Positions 47,998 through 59,543 of a DNA stretch of 64,000 nucleotides are shown here, piece by piece. The notes under the pieces are model-generated. The model searched no databases and had not been told where the DNA came from. It worked only from the letters and a program-made list of their open reading frames with translations. Source of the stretch: Alloalcanivorax gelatiniphagus (GTDB lineage Bacteria; Pseudomonadota; Gammaproteobacteria; Pseudomonadales; Alcanivoracaceae); contig NZ_VCQT01000020.1 of assembly GCF_005938655.1 (NCBI RefSeq), positions 1 to 64,000 on the forward strand, in the 5' to 3' direction. Every line of letters starts with the position of its first letter. The first letter of the stretch is position 1. Made by a program: the position numbers and the translations under genes.

Positions 47998-48356
47998 CCA
48001 TGGGGTCGGACCACGATAACTACTTGATTTAACCCATGGGGTCGGACCACCGCAACTACTTGATTTAGCTGGATTTTAGGCTCAAAAAGGAAGCCTTTTA
48101 CGTGCTTGGCGGCGGGTTTTCCTTAGCGGCGGGCTTTCGGGCCTGAAAAGGCGGTAATAGAGGGCACGGTGTGGTCTGGTCGGCTGAGAGAAGCTCGCCC
48201 CTTAAAGGCCATCAAGTGCGCTAAAAACCGCCTTTTAAGCCTCTTTTTAGCCCCTCTGGAAGGCAGGAATCCTCATAAAAACAAGGGGTTGGGGTGGTCC
48301 GACCCCGGCCCCCCCCCGGCCCCCATATCAAGGGGTTATGGTGGTCCGACCCGTGG
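47998..48356. mobile_element. MITE-like element with duplicated terminal inverted repeats
   Basis: The left end has two direct copies, 36 bp apart, of ATGGGGTCGGACCAC followed by CTACTTGATTTA (from 47998 and 48033). The right end has two copies of CAAGGGGTT..GGTGGTCCGACCC in the opposite sense (from about 48283 and 48330). Left and right ends match over about 31 bp with few differences. The interior is an imperfect palindrome (TTAGGCTCAAAAAGGAAGCC against CTTTTAAGCCTCTTTTTAG). No transposase is encoded. The right end overlaps the 3' end of the TetR gene. Confidence 0.75.
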
Positions 48357-49059
48357 GGGTTGCTTGCATGCCGGCGGTGACGAAGGCGGTCATTTGTTGG
48401 AGGACTTCTTCGGAGTCTTCCGGGTGGCAGATGCCGGGGGCCAGTTGTTCCAGGCGGTGGGTGTCGGAGAAGGCGTACATGTAGGCGCCGATCATCAGGA
48501 TGACGCGCCAGTGGGCGTCCCGTTCGCTGATTTCCGGGAGGGCCTTGCGGAAGGCTTCCACGAACGCTTTGGTGGATTCGTTGTAGGCCTCGTCGCGGAG
48601 TTCGTAGGAGATCTCCGGCGGTTCCGTGTGCAGGCGCGCTTGCAGGCGGATAAAGGCGCGGCCGGATACGGTGGCGCGCAGCTCCAGGGTGGGGATCAGG
48701 AAGGCGCGCACGATGTCGACGACCTGCAGCGGTCCCTGTTTTTCCAGTTCATTCAGACGTTCCAGACGCTGGTCGGAGATGTGCTTGCCGCGGCGCAGAA
48801 AGACTTCCTGGAACAGGCCGTATTTGGAGCCGAAGTAGTAGTTGATCAGCGCCTGGGTGACCTCGGCGGCGTCCGCCACTTCGCGCAGGGTGGTGCCGGC
48901 GTAGCCGCGTTCCGCGAACAGCAGCTCGGAGGCGTCCAGAATGCGGTCGCGGACCTGGCCGTTGGAGCCTTCCGGGCGGCCGGGGCGGTTACGGGCCGCG
49001 GCCTTGGTTTTTTTGTTCGGGGCGACACCGCGTCGGCCCTGGACTTTGGGGCTGGGCAT
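48328..49059 (-). CDS. TetR-family regulator of the pyridine catabolic cluster
   Basis: A 243-residue TetR regulator. A basic Lys/Arg-rich N-terminal tail (residues 1–30) precedes the helix-turn-helix (YAGTTLREVADAAEVTQALI, then NYYFGSKYGLF, about residues 55–86). The C-terminal domain resembles TetR_C_6/RutR-like members. It is the last gene on the strand after nicF (97-bp gap), so it probably controls the cluster. Its last nine codons (PTGRTTITP) and stop are encoded by the terminal repeat of the MITE-like element, so the original tail was replaced. I chose the ATG at 49059. Confidence 0.87.
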   Translation of the reverse strand: MPSPKVQGRRGVAPNKKTKAAARNRPGRPEGSNGQVRDRILDASELLFAERGYAGTTLREVADAAEVTQALINYYFGSKYGLFQEVFLRRGKHISDQRLERLNELEKQGPLQVVDIVRAFLIPTLELRATVSGRAFIRLQARLHTEPPEISYELRDEAYNESTKAFVEAFRKALPEISERDAHWRVILMIGAYMYAFSDTHRLEQLAPGICHPEDSEEVLQQMTAFVTAGMQATPTGRTTITP

Positions 49060-49156
49060 GGGACTCCGGCAAGAATTAAAGAGGTGAATAAATACAGCGC
49101 CGCCGCGTATTCTAGGGCCTGTTTCCCCCATTTGCATCAGGTCGCGGCGGCGCCAC

Positions 49157-49777
49157 TCAGGTGGTTAGTTGGCGGCGCAGCGCCGCCCAGGGCATCACGT
49201 CCGCGTTCTTCTGGGCCATGTCGAACAGATTGGCCCGGTGCGGCGCCAGCGCCCGGTCGCCGACGCAGTCTTCCAGCACCACCGGCCGGAAACCATGGCT
49301 CATGGCATCCACCACGCTGGCGCGCACGCAGCCGCTGGTGGTGCAGCCGGCGACCACCAGGGTGCTGACGCCGCGATGGGTGAGCCAGGCGGCCAGGCCG
49401 GTGCCGAAGAACGCCGAGGGCACGGTCTTGCGCAGCACCCATTCGCCGTCCACCGGCGCCAGCCGCTGGACGATGGCGCTGGCCGGATCCGCTTCCTTGA
49501 GCGCCAGCAGACTTGGCACCTTGAGGGTGAACACATTGGCGTCGGCGTCATCGTCGGCGAACACGATGCGGGTGTGCACCACCGGCCAGCCCCGGCGGCG
49601 CGCCTCGGCCAATACCGGCACGGTGGCCTCGATGGCCTCGGCGATATTGCCGCCACCGAAACGTTGCGGGTCGGCGAAGCCGTTGACGAAATCCACCAGC
49701 AGCAGGGCGGGTTGGCCCTGCAGACCCAGCCGACCACCGAAGCCCTGCTGCCGGTACACCTGTTGATCGTCGCTCAT
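49157..49777 (-). CDS. nicF: Maleamate amidohydrolase (isochorismatase-like, NicF type)
   Basis: A 206-residue cysteine hydrolase. The catalytic triad is visible: Asp in LLVDFVNGF, Lys in VLRKTVPSAF and Cys in VVAGCTTSGCVRASVVDAMS. In the 2,5-dihydroxypyridine pathway NicF hydrolyses maleamate to maleate and ammonia; the RASVVDAMSHGFRPVVLEDCVGDR stretch is also shared with N-carbamoylsarcosine amidases. Function is assigned from the neighbouring nicX, nicD and nicE genes. The ATG overlaps the nicX stop (ATGA). Confidence 0.87.
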   Translation of the reverse strand: MSDDQQVYRQQGFGGRLGLQGQPALLLVDFVNGFADPQRFGGGNIAEAIEATVPVLAEARRRGWPVVHTRIVFADDDADANVFTLKVPSLLALKEADPASAIVQRLAPVDGEWVLRKTVPSAFFGTGLAAWLTHRGVSTLVVAGCTTSGCVRASVVDAMSHGFRPVVLEDCVGDRALAPHRANLFDMAQKNADVMPWAALRRQLTT

Positions 49778-50820
49778 GCGTCGGGCTCCTGGTCCAGCAC
49801 CCGGCCGTCCCGCACCACCGCCTGGCCGTCCAGGGTCACGGTGCAGCCGCGCATGGGAATGTCGATGTGGCAGGCGGCGGTGCGCTGGCCGCCGGCTTCG
49901 TTGTTGGGGCCGGTGGACCACAGGAAGTTGCCTTCGAAGGCGCGGGCGTCCTGGGCGATGGTGGCCTCCCGGTCGTACTGCGCCAGGGTCGACCAGCGGG
50001 CCCGCTTTTGCAGGCCCCAGCCCACATGGGAGAGGGCATAGGATTCCGGGTCGTCGAAGGCGTCCATATAGTCGCGCAGCAGGTCCGCTTCCAGCCCGCC
50101 CTCGATGGCGGTGACGTAGCCGTCGCGCACGGTCATGCGCACCGGGTCCCGCACATAGCTTTTCTCGGGCAGCAGAATGTCGCCCCGGTCCAGCACCACG
50201 GTGCCGTTGGCCTGGCCTTCGTTGGCCCAGGTCACCACGAAGCCGCTGGGCCAGTGGTCCCAGCGGCCGGGCTGGTCCACGAAACCGTATTCCTGGATCA
50301 CCGGGTAATCCCCCAGCGGGCAGCGCAGGTCAGTGCCGGCGGCGGAGGTGACGTGCATCTCGGCGGCCCGCTCCAGCCGCGCGGCGGCCCGGTTGACCCG
50401 CTCCCGGTCCGCTTCCGTGGGCACCAGCCGGGTGAGAATTTCCGGCGGCTCCACCGCCAGCAGAATGCGGGTGCCGGACTTGAGGATGTCGAGCTGTTCC
50501 GGCGAGAACAGCAGGGTCATCAGATCCAGCACCAGATCGCTTTCCTTGAGCGCGGCGATGGCCGCCCGGTTGCCGCTCAGCGGGGTGGTGCCCAGGTAGG
50601 CCAGCGGGTCCCGGCTGAGGGACTTGTCGCCGTTCACCGGCGGCAGTTGCAGCTGGTTGGCGCGGGCGCCCAGCTGACCCAGCGCCACCAGGGCGGTGCG
50701 CAGGGTCTGCGGGTGGCTGGTGTCGCTGGTCAAAAGGGTGACGATATCACCGGCTTTCAATTTGCTGAGGGTCAGAACCTGTTTCCAGGCCTCGATCATC
50801 TGGGTATCGCTGACCGCCAT
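49774..50820 (-). CDS. nicX: 2,5-dihydroxypyridine 5,6-dioxygenase (NicX type)
   Basis: A 348-residue extradiol-like, non-haem iron dioxygenase that opens 2,5-dihydroxypyridine to N-formylmaleamate. Likely iron ligands are the histidine in YALSHVGWGLQKRA (about residue 265) and the His/Asp pair in AACHIDIPMRGC (about residues 319–321), which correspond to the ligands known in the Pseudomonas putida enzyme. It is an M29-aminopeptidase-fold protein by origin. It lies 21 bp after nicD and is coupled to nicF. Confidence 0.92.
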   Translation of the reverse strand: MAVSDTQMIEAWKQVLTLSKLKAGDIVTLLTSDTSHPQTLRTALVALGQLGARANQLQLPPVNGDKSLSRDPLAYLGTTPLSGNRAAIAALKESDLVLDLMTLLFSPEQLDILKSGTRILLAVEPPEILTRLVPTEADRERVNRAAARLERAAEMHVTSAAGTDLRCPLGDYPVIQEYGFVDQPGRWDHWPSGFVVTWANEGQANGTVVLDRGDILLPEKSYVRDPVRMTVRDGYVTAIEGGLEADLLRDYMDAFDDPESYALSHVGWGLQKRARWSTLAQYDREATIAQDARAFEGNFLWSTGPNNEAGGQRTAACHIDIPMRGCTVTLDGQAVVRDGRVLDQEPDA

Positions 50821-50841
50821 GGCGGGGCTCCTTTATAACAG

Positions 50842-51648
50842 TCAAAGCGGGGTGCCGAGGAAATCGCCGAAGGCGCGGTAGAAGGCGTCCTCGTCGTCCC
50901 AGGGAATCATGTGGCCGGCGCTGGTCACGCGGGTCACGCGCAGTTCGGGAATCAGGGTTTCGATTTCCGCCACGTCCGCGTCGCTGATCACGTCGCCCCG
51001 GCCCGCCGCCATCAACAGCACCGGCACCTGGATATGCGGCATGTCCTGGTGAATGTCTTCCTGGTGCATATCGTCGTAGCTTTTCACCACCGCCCGCTCG
51101 TCGCAGGTGTGCAGCCATTCCGCCCGCAGGCGCAGCTGCTGGTCGCTCCAGGTGGGGCAGAATTGGCGCATGGCGTCCGCGTCCATGCCCTCCAGGGCGG
51201 CGCGGATGGAATCCACGTACCAGGGCAGGGCGGACGGGTAGGGGCGCCGGCCGGGGCCGGACACCGGCGGGTCGATCAGCGCCAGCCGGTCAAAGCCGGC
51301 GTGCGGGTGACGGCGGGCCAGGCGCACGGCGATGCGCGCGCCCATGGAATGGCCCACCACCATATAGCGCTGCAGACCCAGCGCTTCGGCGAAGGCGGCC
51401 ACGTCGTCGGCCTGGGCGTCCAGCCCGTAGTCCAGAGTGTCCGAGGCTTCGCTGAGGCCCCGGCCGCGCACGTCCAGCACATAGGTGTCGAAGTGGCGGC
51501 CGAAGCGCTCGGCCACGAAGCCCCAGGTCACCGCCGGGCTGGTGATGCCCGGCACGATCACCACCGCCGGGCCGTTACCGCCATAGCGCAGGTAGTGCTG
51601 GCGGATGCCATTGGCGCGCACATTGGCGCCGTACAGGTATTCGCTCAT
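50842..51648 (-). CDS. nicD: N-formylmaleamate deformylase (NicD type, alpha/beta hydrolase)
   Basis: A 268-residue alpha/beta hydrolase. The nucleophile serine is in VVGHSMGARIAVRLA (about residue 102), an acid in LMAAGRGDVIS and the histidine in TSAGHMIPWDD. In NicD this triad removes the formyl group from N-formylmaleamate. Assignment rests on position between nicE and nicX as well as sequence. An ATG start follows GGAGG. Confidence 0.9.
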   Translation of the reverse strand: MSEYLYGANVRANGIRQHYLRYGGNGPAVVIVPGITSPAVTWGFVAERFGRHFDTYVLDVRGRGLSEASDTLDYGLDAQADDVAAFAEALGLQRYMVVGHSMGARIAVRLARRHPHAGFDRLALIDPPVSGPGRRPYPSALPWYVDSIRAALEGMDADAMRQFCPTWSDQQLRLRAEWLHTCDERAVVKSYDDMHQEDIHQDMPHIQVPVLLMAAGRGDVISDADVAEIETLIPELRVTRVTSAGHMIPWDDEDAFYRAFGDFLGTPL

Positions 51649-51657
51649 GGGGCCTCC

Positions 51658-52425
51658 TCAGTAAGCGCCGGACAGCAGGGCGCCGGCGCCGGGAACCACC
51701 GGTTCCAGGTCCAGTGCCTTGAGCATCTGGTAAGTGGTGGCGATGGCGGCGGTGACCACCGGCTTGCCGGTGAGCGCCTCGACCTTGGCCACCGCCGCCA
51801 GGGACGGCATCTGCACACAGGCGGACAGCACGATGGCGTCGGCATCGGAGACGTCCATGCTGGCGACGATGTCCGGCAGCTTGGCGGTGTCGTGGCGGGC
51901 CACGTCCAGGTTGTTGGGGATTTCCAGGGCGCGGTATTCCAGCACCTCGGTGCCTTCGCGCTGGATGTAATCCACCACCATCTCGGTGAGCGGCTTCATG
52001 TAAGGCGCCACCACCACAACTTTCTTGGCGTTAAGCACCTTGAGCGCGTCCACCAGGGCACCGGCGCTGGTCACCACTTCGGTTTCCTGGCCGTTTTCCT
52101 TGGTGCGCTCACGCAGGCGTTTTTGCGATTCCCGGTGGTAGCCGGGGCCCATGGACATGATCGCCACCAGGCAGGCGTAGCCCATCACATCCACGGCGGC
52201 GTCGCTGAGTTCCAGGGCGCAGCGGTCGGACTCGCCGTCCATGGCGGCCAGCTCTTCCTTGCTCACGGTTTTCATGCGCATGCGGCTGGAATGGAAGGTG
52301 AAGCGCTCCGGGCGGATCAGTTGCCGGGCGTTGAGCATGGCCGGAATCTCGGTCTCCATGGTGATGTTGGAGCTCGGTACGATCTGGCCGATTCGATACA
52401 GGTTCTTGTTATTCGCGCTTTGCAT
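51658..52425 (-). CDS. nicE: Maleate cis-trans isomerase (NicE type)
   Basis: A 255-residue Asp/Glu racemase-superfamily enzyme that isomerises maleate to fumarate. The two catalytic cysteines are likely those in MGYACLVAIMSMG (about residue 82) and VLSACVQMPSLAAV (about 200). The N-terminal RIGQIVPSSNITMETEIPAM segment is diagnostic of maleate isomerases. I chose the ATG at 52425. Fumarate produced here would enter the TCA cycle. Confidence 0.93.
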   Translation of the reverse strand: MQSANNKNLYRIGQIVPSSNITMETEIPAMLNARQLIRPERFTFHSSRMRMKTVSKEELAAMDGESDRCALELSDAAVDVMGYACLVAIMSMGPGYHRESQKRLRERTKENGQETEVVTSAGALVDALKVLNAKKVVVVAPYMKPLTEMVVDYIQREGTEVLEYRALEIPNNLDVARHDTAKLPDIVASMDVSDADAIVLSACVQMPSLAAVAKVEALTGKPVVTAAIATTYQMLKALDLEPVVPGAGALLSGAY

Positions 52426-52438
52426 GGCGTCGCTCCGG

Positions 52439-53665
52439 TCAGGCGGTGGCGGTGGCGTCGAACCGCTCGCCGCAGGTGGTGGCGTCGTATTCGTAGATCC
52501 ACTCGGCACGGATACCCACGGCGTTGGGGTCCTTCTTCTGTGCTTCGCGGAACGCTTCGTCGCGCTTGCGCAGTTCTTCCGGAGTGGACAGGTGATAGCT
52601 GCGGCCGCGCTCGCGGGCTTGCAGCTGCACCTCGGCGGTGCGCGGCCGGCGCTCCTGTTCGTAGGCGCGCAGCGCGGCGGCGCTGTCGCCCTGGTAGTGG
52701 GTGAGCGCCTCGGCCAGCACATAGGCGTCCTCGATGGCCATGGCCGCGCCCTGGGACAGGAACGGCAGCATCGGGTGGGCGGCGTCGCCGAGCAGGGTGG
52801 CCCGGTCGGTGGACCAGCGCGCCATGGGGTCGTGGTCGAACAGGCCCCATTTGAAGGTCTGGCTGGGGTCGGTCATCTTGAACAGCCGGACCAGGTCCTC
52901 ATGCCAGCCTTCATAGGCGGCCAGCAGCTCCTCGGTGCTGCTCGGTTCGGTCCAGGATTCCTCCACCCAGTCGGCGGTTTCGGTGACGGCGACGATGTTC
53001 ACCGCCTTGCCGCCTTTCACGTAGTAGGTGACCACATGGGCCTTGGGGCCCATCCAGAAGGCCGCGTCCGGGCCCACGAACGGCAGCGGGTGCTGATCCA
53101 CCGGTACCAGCGCCCGCCAGCACATATGGCCGGTGAACCGGGGCTGGTCCTGGCCCCACAGGGAGGCGCGCACCGGCGAGTGGATGCCGTCGGCGCCCAC
53201 CACCAGGTCGGCCTTGAATTCAGTGCCATCGGCGAACCGGGCGAGCACCCCGTCGCTGTGCTCCTCGATGCCGGTGCAGCGGGCGTTGAAGGTGATCTTG
53301 TCCGCCGGCAGGTCGGCGCAAAGAATGCCGTGCAGATCGGCCCGGTGCACATGGTAGAACTCGGCGCCGTAAACCTGGGGAAAGGCGTCCTTGAGCGGCG
53401 TGCGGAACAGGGTCTCGCCGGTTTGCCAGTTGATGCCGCGCATGGACTCGGGCAGAAAACCGATATCGTCCAGCGACTCGGTGAGCCCCAGGGCCTTGAG
53501 CACTTTTACCGCGTTGGGGGTCATCTGCACCCCGGCGCCCACTTCGCCGAACGCCGGTGCCTGCTCGAACAGATGAAAATCGATGCCGCGCCGACTCAGG
53601 GCCCGGGCCAGGGCCACGCCGCCGATGCCGCCGCCGATGATGGCCACACGAAGTTGCTCAGACAT
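52439..53665 (-). CDS. FAD-dependent aromatic monooxygenase forming 2,5-dihydroxypyridine (NicC/HpaM-like)
   Basis: A 408-residue group A flavin monooxygenase: GxGxxG motif AIIGGGIGGVALARALSRRG, the DG motif VVGADGIHSPVRASL and the second FAD motif LLGDAAHPMLPFLSQGAAMA. Because nicE, nicD, nicX and nicF follow, its product should be 2,5-dihydroxypyridine. The body resembles salicylate-type hydroxylases more than the best-known NicC. The tail (EWIYEYDATT) does recall the end of NicC. Substrates to consider are 6-hydroxynicotinate, 5-hydroxypicolinate and a succinoyl-pyridine, all decarboxylated or cleaved during hydroxylation. Confidence 0.85.
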   Translation of the reverse strand: MSEQLRVAIIGGGIGGVALARALSRRGIDFHLFEQAPAFGEVGAGVQMTPNAVKVLKALGLTESLDDIGFLPESMRGINWQTGETLFRTPLKDAFPQVYGAEFYHVHRADLHGILCADLPADKITFNARCTGIEEHSDGVLARFADGTEFKADLVVGADGIHSPVRASLWGQDQPRFTGHMCWRALVPVDQHPLPFVGPDAAFWMGPKAHVVTYYVKGGKAVNIVAVTETADWVEESWTEPSSTEELLAAYEGWHEDLVRLFKMTDPSQTFKWGLFDHDPMARWSTDRATLLGDAAHPMLPFLSQGAAMAIEDAYVLAEALTHYQGDSAAALRAYEQERRPRTAEVQLQARERGRSYHLSTPEELRKRDEAFREAQKKDPNAVGIRAEWIYEYDATTCGERFDATATA

Positions 53666-53689
53666 GCAAAACTCCTTATTAAATATTCA

Positions 53690-53703
53690 ACTAATTAATT
53701 ATT
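53690..53703 (-). promoter_or_regulatory. Candidate operator upstream of the nicC-like gene
   Basis: On the minus strand TAATTAATTAGT lies 25–36 bp upstream of the ATG at 53665. It matches TAATCGATTAGT upstream of livK in ten of twelve positions, and its core TAATTAATTA is a perfect palindrome. It sits in an AT-rich stretch in otherwise GC-rich DNA. The TetR at 48328 is the likely binder. Confidence 0.6.
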
Positions 53704-53772
53704 GCGGGCGCGCCGTTTCCGGGGCGCCGCCGGTATTGTCGGTGTCGATGGAAAGGCGCCTGCCGGCGCCCC

Positions 53773-54501
53773 TCAGGCGCCCAGATAAGCGCTCAACACC
53801 TCCGGGTCCTCCAGCAGGGTGGCGCTGTCCGCCTCGGTGCTGATGGTGCCGGTCTCCACCACATAGGCCCGGGAGGCCACCGCCAGGGCGTTGTGCACGT
53901 TCTGCTCCACCACCAGCACGGTGACGCCGTGGCCGTTGATCTCACGGACCACCTCGAACACCTCGTCGGCCATTTTCGGCGACAGCCCCAGGCTCGGTTC
54001 GTCGAGCAGCAGCATGCGCGGCTCCGACATCAGCGCCCGGGCGATGGCCAGCATTTGCTGTTCGCCGCCGCTGAGGGTGCCGGCCATCTGCTTGTAGCGT
54101 TCGCGCAGCCGTGGGAAGCGGTGAAAGGCCATGCCCACCCGTTCTTCCACCTGTTGCCGGGAGCTGACCAGAAAGGCGCCCAGGATCAGGTTCTCGCGCA
54201 CCGTCATGGCCGGCCACACGTGCCGTTCCTCCGGGCAGTGGGCGATGCCGGCGGCCACCACCTTCTCGGCGGACCGGCCGGTGATGTCGTCGCCGTTCCA
54301 GACAATGCTGCCCCGGCTCGGTTTGAGCAGGCCGGAGATGGCCCGCAGGATGGTGCTCTTGCCGGCGCCGTTGGCGCCGATCAGCGCCACGGTTTCGCCT
54401 TCGCCCACCGCCAGATCAATGCCGTGCAGGGCGGCGATCTTGCCGTAGGCCACATGCAGGTCGCTGACCCGCAGCAGGATTTTCGGGTTGCTTGCGGTCA
54501 T
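53773..54501 (-). CDS. livF: Branched-chain-type ABC transporter ATPase LivF
   Basis: A 242-residue ATPase with Walker A GANGAGKSTILRAISG, signature LSGGEQQMLAIARALM and Walker B MLLLDEPSLGLSP, plus the PEERHVWPAMTVRENL region of LivF proteins. Last gene of the importer operon, overlapping livG by four bases and 107 bp from the nicC-like gene. Confidence 0.92.
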   Translation of the reverse strand: MTASNPKILLRVSDLHVAYGKIAALHGIDLAVGEGETVALIGANGAGKSTILRAISGLLKPSRGSIVWNGDDITGRSAEKVVAAGIAHCPEERHVWPAMTVRENLILGAFLVSSRQQVEERVGMAFHRFPRLRERYKQMAGTLSGGEQQMLAIARALMSEPRMLLLDEPSLGLSPKMADEVFEVVREINGHGVTVLVVEQNVHNALAVASRAYVVETGTISTEADSATLLEDPEVLSAYLGA

Positions 54502-55286
54502 GCCCGTGCCCTCCCCAGATAAGCTTCCACCACATCCGGATCGTTCTTCACCTGGGCCGGCGTGCCTTCCGCCAGCTTGCGGCCAAAGTCCATCACCATG
54601 ACCCGGTCGCTGACGTCCATCACCAGGCTCATGTTGTGTTCGACGATGACGATGGAGGGCACCTGTTCGCGGCGCAGCCGCTTGAGGATGCCGCCAAAGC
54701 GCATGGCCTCCTGGCTGTTGAGCCCCGCCGCCGGCTCGTCGAGCATCAGCAGGGTGGGGCGGGCGGCCAGCGCCACCGCCACTTCCAGCAGCCGCAGCTC
54801 ACCGCAGGAAAGCCGGTAGGCCGGGGTGTCCATGCGCGCCCCCAGGTCCAGCAGCTTCACCAGCCGGGCGGCGTTGTCACGGACCTCCTGTTCCGCCCGC
54901 CGTACCGGCGCGGTGGGGAAGAAGGTGGCCAGCAGGCTTTGCCGCGCGCTCAGGTAATGACCGGCCAGCACGTTTTCGAACACGGTCAGGGGTTTCAGCA
55001 CATTGGTCTTCTGGAAGCTGCGCACCAGGCCCCGGCGGGCGATCCGGTAGGGGCTCTGGCCGGTGATGTCCTGGCCCTGGAAGGTCACCCGCCCGGTGGT
55101 GGGCGTGTAGAAACCGGTGATCAGATTGAAGCAGGTGGTCTTGCCGGCGCCGTTGGGACCGATCAGGCCGAACACCTCGCCCCGGTTCACCTGGAAGTCG
55201 ATGTCCTGCACCGCCTTGATGCCGCCGAAGGTCTTGCTCAGGCCTTCCACGGTGAGCAGCGGCGCGTCGCTTTGCGTCGGGTTCAT
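54498..55286 (-). CDS. livG: Branched-chain-type ABC transporter ATPase LivG
   Basis: A 262-residue ATPase: Walker A GPNGAGKTTCFNLITGFY, a LivG-type RSFQKTNVLKPLTVFENV stretch, signature SCGELRLLEVAVALA (a variant LSYG form) and Walker B LLMLDEPAAGLNSQE. It overlaps livF and livM by four bases each. Confidence 0.92.
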   Translation of the reverse strand: MNPTQSDAPLLTVEGLSKTFGGIKAVQDIDFQVNRGEVFGLIGPNGAGKTTCFNLITGFYTPTTGRVTFQGQDITGQSPYRIARRGLVRSFQKTNVLKPLTVFENVLAGHYLSARQSLLATFFPTAPVRRAEQEVRDNAARLVKLLDLGARMDTPAYRLSCGELRLLEVAVALAARPTLLMLDEPAAGLNSQEAMRFGGILKRLRREQVPSIVIVEHNMSLVMDVSDRVMVMDFGRKLAEGTPAQVKNDPDVVEAYLGRARA

Positions 55287-56269
55287 GCCGGGCCTCCCTG
55301 CACGCCGGTGGCGCCGTTGTCGGCCTGGTCGCTGTGATTGCGCTCGCGCCGCTGGTTTAGAAAGCCCATCAGACCGTTGGGCAGGAACAGCACCACGGCC
55401 ATCACGATCAGGCCGAACAGGGACAGCCGCAGCTCCTGCAGCTCACGCAGGTACTCGGTGAGCAGGGTCACCAGCAGAGCGCCCAGCAGCGGCCCGATCA
55501 GGGTGCCCTTGCCGCCGATTAGCACCATGATGATCATGCTCACCATAAAGGCGAAGCCGAACACATTGGCGCCCACGAAGGTGATGTAGTGGGCGTAGAA
55601 GCCGCCGGCCAGGCCGGCCAGAAAGGCACCCAGCACGAAGGCGCGCATGGCGTAGACGAACGGGCGGATACCCACGGACTGGGCCACGAAACGGTTTTCG
55701 CGCACGGTCACCGCGGCGCGGCCGTTGTTGGAGTAGACGAAGCGGTAGGCCAGGTACAGCGAGACCGCGGTGAGCGCCAGGGCCAGATAGAAATAGAAGC
55801 GCTTGGCCATCAGCGGCGAGGCGTCCGCCAACAGCGCCGGCTGCGCCACCCCGGACAGACCCATGGGCCCATTGGTGAAGTCCACCCAGTTGTTGGCGAT
55901 CAACCGCAGCACCTCGGCGAAGGCCAGGGTGATGATCACGAAGTAGGGGCCGCGCAGGCGCAGGGTGATGGCGCCGATCAGCACACCGAACAGCGCCGAT
56001 ATCACGCCGGCCAGGGGAATGGTGGCCCAGGCCGGCAGCCCCAGCCGCAGGGACAGCAGCGCGGCGCTGTAGGCGCCCAGGCCGAGAAAGGCGGTGTGGC
56101 CCAGGGAAAACTCGCCCACGTAACCGACGATCAGGTTCAGGCTGGTGGCGAGCATGGCGTAGAGCAGCACCATGATGCCGATGTGCAGCAGGTACTGGTT
56201 GCCCACCAGCAACGGAAAGGCGAGGGCGATCAGGCCCAGGGCCAGCAGGGTATTGCGTTCAAATTTCAT
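55283..56269 (-). CDS. livM: Branched-chain-type ABC transporter permease LivM
   Basis: A 328-residue permease with about nine hydrophobic segments. It contains LNLIVGYVGEFSLGHTAFLG and the loop RENRFVAQSVGIRPFVYAMR that contacts the ATPase. I chose the ATG at 56269 (MKFERNTLL); the upstream frame runs into livH. It lies two bases from livH. Confidence 0.92.
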   Translation of the reverse strand: MKFERNTLLALGLIALAFPLLVGNQYLLHIGIMVLLYAMLATSLNLIVGYVGEFSLGHTAFLGLGAYSAALLSLRLGLPAWATIPLAGVISALFGVLIGAITLRLRGPYFVIITLAFAEVLRLIANNWVDFTNGPMGLSGVAQPALLADASPLMAKRFYFYLALALTAVSLYLAYRFVYSNNGRAAVTVRENRFVAQSVGIRPFVYAMRAFVLGAFLAGLAGGFYAHYITFVGANVFGFAFMVSMIIMVLIGGKGTLIGPLLGALLVTLLTEYLRELQELRLSLFGLIVMAVVLFLPNGLMGFLNQRRERNHSDQADNGATGVQGGPA

Positions 56270-56271
56270 GC

Positions 56272-57144
56272 TCAGGCCCTCTCCACCTGGGTTGAAAACA
56301 GCCCGTAGGGTTTGAAGATCAGAGTCAGGATGACAATGATGAAGCCGATGATGTCCACCGTTCCCGTGGAGATGTAGCCGCCCCACAGGGCTTCCGCCAG
56401 GCCCAGCAACAGGCCGCCGACAATGGCGCCGGCGAAGCTGCCCATGCCACCCAGGATCACCACCACGAAGGCCTTCAGGCTGACCAGCCCGCCGGCGCTG
56501 ACATGGGTGGAATAGATGGAACCGAGCAGCATGCCGGCGGACGCGGCCAGCATGGTGCCCAGGGCGAAGGTGCTGGCGTACACCCGGGCGGTGTTGATGC
56601 CGGCCAGCCGGGCCGCCATCGGGTCCTGGAAGGTGGCGCGCATGGCGCGGCCCAGCCGGGTATGACGGATCACCAGGTGGGCGGCGAGAATCAGCACCGC
56701 GCAGGCGGCCACCGCGAACACCCGCAGTTCGGTGAGCACCACCGGACCCAGGAACACCGGCTTGTTGGGCAGCGGGCCTTCGATGGTCAGCGGCGCGGTG
56801 CCCACCAGCAGCAGGGCGGTGTTGGTCAGGAAGATCGACAGCCCGATGGTGAGCAGAATGCTGGGCTCCTCGCCCTGGTCGCGCACCCGCTCGATCAGGA
56901 AGCGGTCCACCAGCCAGCCGCAGGCGCCCATCACCGCCAGGGTCAGCGCCAGGCCGGCGAAGAAGTTCAGGCCCAGCACCGTGGTGGCCAGCCAGCCCAT
57001 CACGCCGCCCAGCATGTACAGCTCACCGTGGGCGAAGTTGACCACCCGCATCAGCCCGAAGATCAGGGTCAGGCCCAGGGCCGAGAGCGCGTAGAACGCC
57101 CCCGACACCAGACCGTTGGCGATAAACTGCAACAGCATATCCAT
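56272..57144 (-). CDS. livH: Branched-chain-type ABC transporter permease LivH
   Basis: A 290-residue permease with about eight membrane helices. Family segments are FGLMRVVNFAHGELYMLGG near the N-terminus and ATFQDPMAARLAGINTARVY, the cytoplasmic coupling loop. It lies three bases downstream of livK. Confidence 0.93.
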   Translation of the reverse strand: MDMLLQFIANGLVSGAFYALSALGLTLIFGLMRVVNFAHGELYMLGGVMGWLATTVLGLNFFAGLALTLAVMGACGWLVDRFLIERVRDQGEEPSILLTIGLSIFLTNTALLLVGTAPLTIEGPLPNKPVFLGPVVLTELRVFAVAACAVLILAAHLVIRHTRLGRAMRATFQDPMAARLAGINTARVYASTFALGTMLAASAGMLLGSIYSTHVSAGGLVSLKAFVVVILGGMGSFAGAIVGGLLLGLAEALWGGYISTGTVDIIGFIIVILTLIFKPYGLFSTQVERA

Positions 57145-57147
57145 GGG

Positions 57148-58311
57148 TTACTGCCCGTCCTTGGCGTGGTTTGCCTCGGGGTCGGCGATGCGGGTGGTGG
57201 CGACCACCTCGGTGTGGCCATCGCGGATCTGCACCAGCGCCGCCTCGAAGCCATAGCCCTGGCCCTTGGCGGTGAACCGGTAGCGGCCGTTGGGGGCCTG
57301 GTAGTCGGTGGCGTGGAGCCCGTCGACGATGGCGTCGGCGTCGGTGCCGCCGGCCCGCTGGATGGCGTCCATCATGATGTTCAGGGAGTTGTAGCCGGCG
57401 GCGGCGTACTTGCCGGGGGCGTGGTCATAGGCGGCGCTGTAGTCCTCCACGAAGCGCTGGTTGCGCTCGCCGGGCAGGTTGGACACATAGGGCACGGCGG
57501 CATAGATGCCTTCCGCCGCCTCGCCGGTGATCTTGATGAAATCGCTGGTGGCCCAGGAGCCCACGCCGAACACGTCCATATCAATGCCGAACTGCTTGAT
57601 CTGCTTGACCAGGGTGGAGCCGTCCTGGGTTTCGGCGGCCACGAACACGCCGTCGGCGCCGGAGCCGCGCAGCTTGGTGAGCAGGGTGTAGAAATCGGTG
57701 GCGCCATGGTTGAAGTACTCGACCAGGGTGGTCTCCACGCCGTGGCTGGAAAGCTCCTGCTCGAAGGCCTTGGCGCTGCCCCGGCCCCAGTCGTCGTTGA
57801 CGCCGATATAGGCCACTTTCTTGAGGCCCAGGTTGTCGACGATCAGGCGTGAGAATGCCTGGCCGAGCAGGGCGTCGGTCTCGGCGGAGCGGAAGAAGTA
57901 GGGGTTACCTTTTTCGGTAAGGCTGGCCTCGGAGGACACCCCGGTGAGGAACGGCGTTTTGTACTTGCCCGCCACCGGCATCACCGCGGAGGTGGCGGAG
58001 CTGCAGAAGGCGCCCACCAGCGCCACCACCTGGTCGCGCTGGATCAGTTTTTCGGCGGCGTTCACCGAGTTGGCCGGGCTGCACTGGCCGTCCTCGATGA
58101 TCAGTTCCACCTGTTTGCCGAGGATGCCGCCGGCTGCGTTGCGTTGCTTCACGGCCAGCCGCGCGCCGTTGGCGTCGGCGGTGCCGTTGTAGGCCACCGA
58201 ACCGGTGAGCGGCTGGATCAGACCGATTTTGACAGTGTCTTGGGCCTGCAGGGCCGGGGCACAGGCCAGCAAGGCAGTCGCCATTATCGGAGCCAGAATC
58301 TGTTTTCTCAT
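57148..58311 (-). CDS. livK: Periplasmic ligand-binding protein of the HAAT-type ABC transporter
   Basis: A 387-residue Periplasmic_binding_protein_6 (LivK-like). The signal peptide ends near APALQAQ (about residue 23). Ligand and hinge segments are KIGLIQPLTGSVAYNGTAD, VALVGAFCSSATSAVMPVAG and YIGVNDDWGRGSAKAFE. Relatives import amino acids, amides, urea or aromatic acids. Its place directly before the pyridine genes suggests a hydroxypyridine carboxylate or similar as ligand. I chose the ATG at 58311, with AGGAG upstream; the longer frame is non-conserved. Confidence 0.9.
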   Translation of the reverse strand: MRKQILAPIMATALLACAPALQAQDTVKIGLIQPLTGSVAYNGTADANGARLAVKQRNAAGGILGKQVELIIEDGQCSPANSVNAAEKLIQRDQVVALVGAFCSSATSAVMPVAGKYKTPFLTGVSSEASLTEKGNPYFFRSAETDALLGQAFSRLIVDNLGLKKVAYIGVNDDWGRGSAKAFEQELSSHGVETTLVEYFNHGATDFYTLLTKLRGSGADGVFVAAETQDGSTLVKQIKQFGIDMDVFGVGSWATSDFIKITGEAAEGIYAAVPYVSNLPGERNQRFVEDYSAAYDHAPGKYAAAGYNSLNIMMDAIQRAGGTDADAIVDGLHATDYQAPNGRYRFTAKGQGYGFEAALVQIRDGHTEVVATTRIADPEANHAKDGQ

Positions 58312-58360
58312 CGTCGTTATCTCCTGTTGAGCTTTGTTGTTAGCGCGACTGATCGACATA

Positions 58361-58382
58361 TTAATTAATCGATTAGTAAATT
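58361..58382 (-). promoter_or_regulatory. Candidate operator/promoter region of livK
   Basis: The plus-strand string TAATCGATTAGT (58366–58377) has the perfect palindrome TAATCGATTA at its core and lies in an AT-rich tract about 55 bp upstream of the livK ATG. It shares ten of twelve bases with the motif upstream of the nicC-like gene. Confidence 0.6.
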
Positions 58383-58547: not shown

Positions 58548-59543
58548 TCAGCGGTGGTGGCGGTCCGGCGGCGCCATGAACTCCGGGCCCACCGGGTCGG
58601 TGAGGGTGTCCGCCAGGATGAGATCGATCTCCGCCCGGGCATCGTCGTCCAGGTGCCAGCCCTGGATATCGGTGACCGCCTCGATCTGCTCCGGGCGGCG
58701 GGCCCCCCACAGCGCCACCGACACCCCGGGCTGGTCGAGCAGCCAGCGCAGCGCCAGGGCCAGCACCCGCTTGCCATAGCGCCGCCGGGCCAGGGCATCG
58801 AGCCGGGTCACCGCTTCCAGGTATTGCCGGTAGCGGGGCGGTTGGAATTTGGGATCGTTGTTGCGCAGGTCGTCGCCGTCGAAGCGGGTATGCTCGCGCA
58901 TCTTGCCGGACAGCAGCCCCCGGCACAGAGCGCCGTAGGTGAGGGTGTCCAGCCCCAGTTCGCCGAGCACCGGCAGCAGGTCCTTCTCCATGTCCCGTTC
59001 GAACAGGTTATAGGGCGGCTGCACCGTGGACAGCGGGCACACCGCGTGGAAGGCGCGAATCTGATCGGCGTCGAAATTGCTGACGCCCACGGCGCGGATC
59101 TTGCCGGCGCGCTTCAGGTCCGCCATGGCTTCGGCGGCTTCCTCCACCGGCCGGGTGGGGTCCGGCCAGTGCAGCTGGTACAGGTCGATCACGTCGCTGC
59201 GCAGCCGCCGCAGGCTGTCGTTCACTTCCTGGACAATCCGCTCCCGGCCGGCGTCCCGGTAGGGGCCCTGGTGGTCCCAGTTCAGTCCGCACTTGGTGGC
59301 GATGGCCACGCGCTGGCGCAGCCGGCCCTGTTGCAGGGCCAGGCCCACCCGTTCCTCGGACTCGCCGAAACCATATACCGGCGCGGTGTCGATCAGGGTG
59401 ATGCCCCGGTCCACCGCTTCCTGAATGGTGCGGATCGAGTCCTGTTCATCATTGCCGCCCCACATCCAGCCGCCAATCGCCCAGGTGCCCAGGGCGATGC
59501 GGCTGCAGGTGATGTCGCTGTTGTGGAGAGTGACGGTGTCCAT
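58548..59543 (-). CDS. Aldo/keto reductase
   Basis: A 331-residue TIM-barrel oxidoreductase with the catalytic tetrad visible: Asp and Tyr in LIDTAPVYGFGESEERVG, Lys in VAIATKCGLNW and His in LYQLHWPDP. The C-terminal LDQPGVSVALWGARRPEQIE segment binds NADP. It is most similar in layout to the YajO/Tas-like group. It is on the same strand upstream of livK but is cut off by a terminator, so it is not part of the importer operon. I chose the ATG at 59543. Confidence 0.9.
   Translation of the reverse strand: MDTVTLHNSDITCSRIALGTWAIGGWMWGGNDEQDSIRTIQEAVDRGITLIDTAPVYGFGESEERVGLALQQGRLRQRVAIATKCGLNWDHQGPYRDAGRERIVQEVNDSLRRLRSDVIDLYQLHWPDPTRPVEEAAEAMADLKRAGKIRAVGVSNFDADQIRAFHAVCPLSTVQPPYNLFERDMEKDLLPVLGELGLDTLTYGALCRGLLSGKMREHTRFDGDDLRNNDPKFQPPRYRQYLEAVTRLDALARRRYGKRVLALALRWLLDQPGVSVALWGARRPEQIEAVTDIQGWHLDDDARAEIDLILADTLTDPVGPEFMAPPDRHHR

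Follow-up and report, generated by a model that had tools for sequence, protein, structure and literature searches.

Comparison with described systems

The nic cluster of Pseudomonas putida KT2440 joins NicAB and NicC to a lower pathway of NicX, NicD, NicF and NicE, and the NicS protein of P. putida is TetR-type. In the hpa pathway of Alcaligenes faecalis JQ135 a single flavin adenine dinucleotide (FAD) monooxygenase reportedly feeds enzymes of the NicX, NicD and NicF types; Qiu (2018) is said to have recognised HpaM as the 5-hydroxypicolinate enzyme of this strain, with a pathway running HpaM-HpaX-HpaD-HpaF plus MaiA. The locus considered here belongs to Alloalcanivorax gelatiniphagus, a marine member of a genus better known for hydrocarbons, and lies in the first 64 kb of contig NZ_VCQT01000020.1, the whole of which we call the window. 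Its eleven genes encode a branched-chain amino acid (LIV) type importer (livKHMGF), an FAD monooxygenase (MO), the enzymes NicE, NicD, NicX and NicF, and a TetR regulator. We consider it reasonably probable that this cluster serves to take up and degrade a pyridine monocarboxylic acid with a para hydroxyl group, 5-hydroxypicolinate being the likeliest one.

With the nic cluster of KT2440 the window cluster shares the lower pathway of NicX, NicD, NicF and NicE type, but it has neither NicAB nor a NicC orthologue, and carries instead the LIV importer and the TetR gene. The likeness to the hpa pathway lies in the single monooxygenase, and five Alcaligenes genomes share the window's LIV importer and TetR at the corresponding locus; the two differ in that nicE is inside the window cluster (order MO-E-D-X-F) and is not found near the Alcaligenes genes (D-X-F-MO). 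Maleate isomerase is available here both from the cluster and from a 99% identical nicE copy in the nic locus of the same genome. The five-gene architecture and the family of the importer are those of Escherichia coli LivJ/LivK-HMGF, whereas E226 and the tyrosines that form the amino acid site are missing from the window LivK. The pic cluster for picolinate in Alcaligenes and Bordetella has, in the available part of its description (PMC10142695), the same lower enzymes from 2,5-dihydroxypyridine, but employs the dehydrogenase PicA, the multicomponent PicB and the decarboxylase PicC, none of which is seen in the window cluster.

A sequence-only reading of this DNA had stressed that the MFS transporter and MarR regulator of characterised nic clusters are replaced by LIV and TetR components. 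This is the case in the window cluster, and it has a precedent: the nicotine cluster of Agrobacterium S33, as given in the available part of PMC5500553, places 2,5-dihydroxypyridine genes together with a TetR gene and substrate-induced ABC transporter genes; there, the transporters carry a putrescine/spermidine-type annotation and entry is by the nicotine enzymes and Hsh. Judged by titles and abstract openings, a search of open-licence papers found no relevant report linking dihydroxypyridine with a branched-chain amino acid transporter.

Proposed pathway

In the scheme that we favour, LivK would capture the pyridine acid in the periplasm and LivHMGF would import it at the expense of ATP. MO would then hydroxylate the carboxyl-bearing carbon with release of CO2, which is the chemistry of HpaM, to yield 2,5-dihydroxypyridine; NicX would open the ring to N-formylmaleamate, NicD would remove formate, NicF would remove ammonia and NicE would convert maleate to fumarate. 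TetR would repress two units, livKHMGF and MO-nicEDXF-tetR, via palindromes in both promoters. The substrate, the transport, the decarboxylation and the TetR binding are what we infer from the sequence comparisons below.

Since no hydroxylase belongs to the cluster and its FAD monooxygenase is of a one-step decarboxylating type, it would need a ready-made hydroxypyridine acid. That such a preformed acid is taken up, bypassing nicotinate hydroxylation, had been proposed from the sequence alone; for the cluster the idea is favoured by the missing hydroxylase, by the LivK pocket and by the other transporters found where the LIV genes are missing, whereas a bypass on the scale of the whole organism is not supported (see below). 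Among the substrates then considered, 5-hydroxypicolinate appears to fit best and 6-hydroxynicotinate second.

The monooxygenase and NicC

Although MO aligns with NicC (PDB 5eow, expect value (E) 5.5e-66), to judge from its tree position and pocket the two are not orthologous. A tree of 83 sequences places the 60 members of the MO core (rounded identity of at least 54%) in a single clade (support 0.911), separate from a NicC clade of nine sequences from eight genes (support 0.989). At five pocket positions, which we take to be the NicC active-site residues H47, C202, H211, Y215 and H302 in numbering and role, all 60 core members have Q, A/S/T, H, Y and F (Q/A/H/Y/F in the window MO), and all nine NicC-clade members have H/C/H/Y/H. 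Thus, three of the five positions differ, while H211 and Y215 are shared. Two relatives that are more distant and fall with NicC in the tree read H/V/H/Y/H (L090) and Q/N/H/Y/H (L091).

A structural model of MO (predicted local distance difference test score, pLDDT, 86) has as nearest structures tropone 2-monooxygenase (TrlE), decarboxylative vanillate 1-hydroxylase, NicC, 3-hydroxybenzoate 6-hydroxylase and 4-hydroxybenzoate 1-hydroxylase. The available part of PMC6692525 lists the 5-hydroxypicolinate monooxygenase HpoO among NicC-related decarboxylating flavin monooxygenases. The window genome has a further FAD monooxygenase, 39% identical to MO, on contig C11 (L067:4962-8087), which follows what appear from the sequence to be gentisate dioxygenase and fumarylacetoacetate-type genes.

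A candidate substrate from Alcaligenes

Of 268 genomes searched from the Pigmentiphaga family, 45 have MO at E 1e-90 or better, and the surroundings were taken for 38 of these 45 (one of them twice). Five genomes (G084, G085, G087, G088 and G089) have the order livKHMGF-nicD-nicX-nicF-MO-tetR, with no nicE nearby and an MO 60-61% identical to that of the window. We have taken all five to be Alcaligenes because the 3-hydroxybutyrate dehydrogenase of G088 is identical at 257 of 260 residues to PDB 2yz7, which is presumably the A. faecalis enzyme, and because G084 and G085 contain a perfect match to the naaD forward primer of Alcaligenes P156, which fits G087, G088 and G089 with one or two mismatches. 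Nitrite reductase was discarded as a marker; it occurs in all five genomes, but its sequence does not look like that of the A. faecalis S-6 enzyme. Equating naaD/E/F of P156 with the MO cluster was likewise rejected, as in each of the Alcaligenes MO loci all six primers mismatch at 5 to 6 positions.

G084 and G085 have a second NicX copy in a nic locus, next to the genes of a three-component nicotinate dehydrogenase; of the six P156 primers, four fit this locus of G084 exactly, and the naaF pair has 1 and 4 mismatches there. A third NicX copy in G084 stands beside Rieske oxygenase parts and a PicC-like amidohydrolase, as in the pic layout of the available part of PMC10142695. With the other two copies thus belonging to nic and pic, the MO cluster is left as the candidate for 5-hydroxypicolinate (hpa), an acid that A. 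faecalis JQ135 degrades according to the portion of PMC6460240 at hand. The same source gives A. aquatilis QD168 only two nicDXF copies, so that their number varies in Alcaligenes.

Recurrence of the gene block

We compiled 64 MO loci and kept 60 after dropping four with an MO identity below 54%; the distant L031-L033, L169 and L170 were not entered. In 49 of the 60 there are 6 kb on both sides (48 distinct loci, as L008 and L080 are one record taken twice). A TetR homologue (45% or more) is present in all 49, nicX in 42, nicD in 40, the LIV importer in 38, nicF in 37 and nicE in 22. None of the 49 has nicAB at 45% or more within 8.5 kb, which bears out the earlier statement that NicAB is not part of the cluster; in the window genome it is found on contig C11. 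The block occurs across Alpha-, Beta- and Gammaproteobacteria, and this recurrence indicates that the grouping of the genes is more than chance. Three named records, two of Alloalcanivorax marinus and one of an Alcanivorax sp., have MO relatives at 94-95% identity, and five of the 13 genomes of the genus have MO at 86% or more.

Where the LIV genes are missing, other transporters are found near MO: MFS (L027, L163 and L164), TRAP (L013), an NMT1-type ABC system (L149), ABC genes (L028 and L029), TctC with TctA (L147), a TctC protein (L017) and a cytosine/purine-type permease (L020).

The LivK binding site

The window LivK and eight relatives were aligned with E. coli LivJ and LivK. In all nine, E226 is replaced by G, Y18 by N, Y150 by W and Y202 by E; in the window protein S79 is kept and T102 is replaced by Ser. 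We assume that E226 of LivJ binds the amino group, that Y18, Y150 and Y202 form the amino acid site and that S79 and position 102 lie on the carboxylate side. With E226 lost and the serines kept, an amino acid is an unlikely ligand and the pocket would suit a carboxylate without an amino group. A structure search was tried as a guide to the ligand and gave no decision, leucine and p-hydroxybenzoate binders both being near.

It could be argued that the LIV genes encode a branched-chain amino acid importer that is simply a neighbour of the catabolic genes: among the LIV-type NCBIfam models, those that livK, livG and livF match best describe amino acid transporters, and a 107-bp gap after livF sets the LIV genes apart as a unit of their own. 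However, these three, the only LIV proteins in the NCBIfam scan, score under the curated cut-offs, the glutamate for the amino group is Gly in the nine aligned family members, LIV is linked to MO in 38 of the 49 loci, and the same palindrome precedes livK and MO. We regard a mere neighbour as very improbable.

NicB and NicC in other genomes with the monooxygenase

The 5-hydroxypicolinate assignment has to be weighed against a second possibility, that MO is another, non-orthologous 6-hydroxynicotinate 3-monooxygenase, whose acid is released by other cells or is made by NicAB where NicC is missing. We surveyed 15 named genomes with MO, with a presence threshold of 45%. NicC is found at 59% or more in four and at 49% in one, the other ten having at most 39%; a NicB-type protein is found at 51% or more in nine and at 33-43% in four, and at E 1e-20 there is none in P. 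massiliensis or Halomonas colorata. Both proteins are thus present in five genomes, NicB alone in four and neither in six, from which it follows that the cluster can exist without NicAB.

Several results weigh against 5-hydroxypicolinate, or against so simple a picture of the cluster. Four Variovorax genomes (G018, G020, G025 and G026) have MO together with NicB (56-57%) and no NicC-like match above 39%; their NicA-NicB genes stand beside LIV-type genes with a LivK 25-26% identical to that of the window (three of the four being covered). In L138 (G119:C263, a contig of 4,375 bp) a NicB-type gene (58%, with MoCoBD domains) precedes MO on the same strand at a distance of 33 bp, and MO is followed by a solute-binding protein, 25% identical to LivK, which to our eye has the look of the Variovorax nicotinate loci. 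Molybdenum (Mo) hydroxylase-type genes precede livK in L134, L135, L136 and L168 at 31-38%, under the 45% limit of the tally, with NicA matches of 31-32% and cytochrome subunit matches of 37-38%; L134 has Mo, 2Fe-2S and cytochrome c parts according to Pfam, and a RibD_C protein stands between these and livK. Two MO relatives (L031 and L032, 50-51%) have the same pocket amid genes of a CoA pathway, so that the pocket is not specific for pyridines and cannot alone name the substrate. Five of the 49 well-flanked loci have neither nicX nor LIV, and two have LIV without nicX. The structures nearest to the LivK model (pLDDT 78) mix leucine and p-hydroxybenzoate binders. Finally, the putative HpaM identity of the Alcaligenes MO is a conclusion by elimination.

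The Variovorax and L138 results have lowered our confidence in 5-hydroxypicolinate; in some hosts MO may work after a hydroxylase, perhaps on 6-hydroxynicotinate. They speak for the second 6-hydroxynicotinate enzyme, along with the alignment to NicC and the shared H211 and Y215. Against it are the separate clade and the three changed pocket positions, the six genomes with neither NicB nor NicC, and Variovorax G019, in which NicC, two NicB loci and MO occur together. Alloalcanivorax also has MO alongside a NicC that keeps all five residues and, as NicC is present in all five MO-bearing genomes among the 13 of the genus, a second enzyme of this kind would be redundant there. On these grounds we think this alternative unlikely, though worth keeping in mind.

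Less likely again is a third reading, in which MO acts on some other para-substituted pyridine (3-hydroxypyridine or an acid with another side chain), made elsewhere or by nearby Mo-hydroxylases, to give 2,5-dihydroxypyridine. NicX, NicD and NicF tell us the product of MO but not its substrate, such Mo-hydroxylase-type genes do lie beside the cluster in the four loci above and in L138, and the likeness to HpaM was reached by elimination. Nevertheless, most of the structures nearest to MO are of enzymes that hydroxylate aromatic acids at the ipso or para position, LivK has retained S79 and has a serine at position 102, and the elimination in Alcaligenes favours 5-hydroxypicolinate over other para-substituted pyridines.

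The Variovorax loci L195-L200 (G018, G020, G025, G026 and G019) have, next to hydroxylase genes of the NicA-NicB type, a second kind of LIV importer, with a LivK 25-28% identical to that of the window where covered. In G019 there is a NicA-NicB-LIV locus, a second locus (L200) with NicC, NicD, NicX and LIV genes, and the MO cluster.

Putative operators

The palindrome TAATTAAT occurs in the 64-kb window only at the two sites of Table 1, upstream of livK and of MO (4 overlapping matches against 0.04 expected). Because the 107-bp gap between livF and MO holds the second copy, there are probably two transcription units. Over 58 loci, TTAATTA or its complement was counted 192 times in 30.4 kb of DNA upstream of livK, MO and tetR, against 84 times in 1,082 kb elsewhere, an 81-fold enrichment that has to be read as an upper figure because promoters are AT-rich. 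TTAATTA lies within 200 bp in 35 of the 41 livK and 39 of the 58 MO upstream regions. TetR would accordingly be expected to bind palindromes of the TTAATTA type. Two points tell against this: TTAATTA is upstream of tetR in only three of 55 cases, and the palindrome was picked by eye from the same promoters and their relatives in which it was then counted. In the stretches around the nic locus (L068) and nicX2 (L066) there is no exact TAATTAAT, and L067, on contig C11, has one.

The nicotinate locus and a second NicX in the same genome

A search of the rest of the genome for nicAB, suggested at the outset, found it together with nicC on contig C11. The nic locus there (L068) has three genes reading as tctCBA, nicF, nicE, nicD, NicC, a MobA-like gene, two NicB-type proteins, NicA and a sodium-solute symporter. 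Its NicC matches PDB 5eow at E 1.6e-174 and keeps all five pocket residues; of the NicB-type proteins, one is of the molybdopterin kind and one has cytochrome c domains. A three-component nicotinate dehydrogenase is known from Alcaligenes (PMC6403243, available part). The absence of nicAB is therefore a property of the window cluster and not of the organism, and the notion that the organism bypasses nicotinate hydroxylation is not supported, its own genome having NicA, two NicB-type proteins and NicC.

The C11 nic locus has no nicX. The window genome has only two NicX-type genes, the window nicX and NicX2 (contig C13, 98397). NicX2 (43-45% identity) adjoins a second TetR with the same C-terminal family (L066:9512-11390, about 97.5-99.4 kb on C13), and no other nic gene was found in the 19-kb L066 stretch around it. 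Three MO loci (L009, L013 and L029) carry a NicX2-type dioxygenase, 83-87% identical to that of the window genome, an indication that NicX2 functions as a 2,5-dihydroxypyridine dioxygenase. The MO-bearing Alloalcanivorax nic loci that we examined (L068, L081, L082 and L085) are all without nicX; L081, L082 and L085 have an unannotated stretch of 4.6-4.7 kb between nicC and mobA. In L078 (G006:C1:155000-173000) the MO cluster itself is without nicX, and the only NicX-type gene of that genome is NicX2, away from both clusters. The genus member G002 has no MO cluster and has its own nicX beside nicC. We infer that the nicotinate route, with NicAB, NicC and a TctABC-like transporter, meets the route of the MO cluster at 2,5-dihydroxypyridine.

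The two loci also have nicE in common. Over 741 bp, the window nicE and the nic-locus copy (L068:7705-8442) are 99.06% identical in DNA. In a nucleotide tree the two copies pair within the window genome (0.995) and within G003 (0.990), the MO-cluster nicE of G006 falling outside the pairs; several contigs end at or just before nicE. The tree points to homogenisation of nicE between the two operons within one genome, that is, to concerted evolution.

Gene layout

All eleven genes were found on the minus strand, head to tail, in the order livK-livH-livM-livG-livF-MO-nicE-nicD-nicX-nicF-tetR (Table 1), so that the uninterrupted same-strand run with gaps of 2-107 bp or overlaps described earlier is confirmed in order and strand. 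There are 4-bp overlaps at livM/livG, livG/livF and nicX/nicF, and apart from the livF-MO junction, with its 107 bp, the gaps are of 2 to 21 bp. For livK, alternative starts are possible as far as about 58382. FAD-binding, NicX metal-site and hydrolase motifs are all intact. NicX matches P. putida NicX (PDB 7cn3) over its whole length, with 345 residues aligned, at E 7.8e-117, while neither Pfam nor NCBIfam gives a match at E 0.001; its SHVGWG and CHIDIP are, we take it, the metal-binding motifs. NicD is 64% identical to the NicD of the nic locus of its own genome.

Table 1. Genes and putative operators of the cluster, in positions of the window
Feature	Position	Strand	Remarks
Putative operator 1 (ATTAATTAAT)	58360..58369		upstream of livK; TAATTAAT match
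livK, periplasmic solute-binding protein	57148..58311	-	Pfam Peripla_BP_6; family of 15 sequences
livH, permease	56272..57144	-	Pfam BPD_transp_2
livM, permease	55283..56269	-	Pfam BPD_transp_2
livG, ATP-binding subunit	54498..55286	-	best NCBIfam model LivG (NF008449), 271 bits, under cut-off of 362
livF, ATP-binding subunit	53773..54501	-	best NCBIfam model LivF (NF008626), 242 bits, under cut-off of 441
Putative operator 2 (TAATTAATTA)	53692..53701		livF-MO gap, upstream of MO; TAATTAAT match
MO, single-component FAD monooxygenase, proposed 5-hydroxypicolinate 2-monooxygenase (HpaM/HpoO type)	52439..53665	-	FAD_binding_3; GGGIGG, ADGI and GDAAH motifs
nicE-like maleate isomerase (Asp/Glu racemase family)	51658..52425	-	Amdase PF17645
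nicD-like N-formylmaleamate deformylase (alpha/beta hydrolase)	50842..51648	-	Abhydrolase_1; GHSMG motif
nicX, 2,5-dihydroxypyridine 5,6-dioxygenase	49774..50820	-	PDB 7cn3 match; SHVGWG and CHIDIP kept
nicF-like maleamate amidohydrolase (isochorismatase family)	49157..49777	-	PF00857; GCTTSGC motif
tetR, TetR regulator	48328..49137 (start perhaps 49059)	-	Pfam, TetR_C_30 domain

An aldo/keto reductase gene (58548-59543) adjoins livK; it has no match near the cluster in L006-L008 and was not counted as part of it. The segment around 43.2-47.2 kb, which includes a 719-aa protein that reads as malate synthase G, neighbours the cluster in G003, G004 and G006 as well.

Implications

Taken together, livKHMGF may be the founding case of a LIV subfamily for pyridine carboxylic acids, LIV being among five or more transporter families (LIV, MFS, TRAP, NMT1/Tau-type ABC and TctABC) that can replace one another on one conserved monooxygenase core, with TetR reading TTAATTA palindromes before importer and enzymes, and with a second, distant LIV subfamily serving the Variovorax nicotinate loci; as a joint claim, this stands evenly poised between right and wrong. 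The locus itself is widespread and is best filed under the known 5-hydroxypicolinate pathway, to which it usefully adds the probable specificity of the transporter, a putative operator and the presence of a second, converging route in the same genome. The analysis offers a testable substrate, transporter and operator for genes that are found together in many bacteria and are annotated in part as branched-chain amino acid transporter and FAD-dependent monooxygenase, and the changed LivK pocket could be a sequence mark for pyridine-acid importers. The nicE gene would illustrate clearly how two operons of one genome can exchange a gene, and an Alloalcanivorax genome can, it appears, carry two converging pyridine-acid routes.

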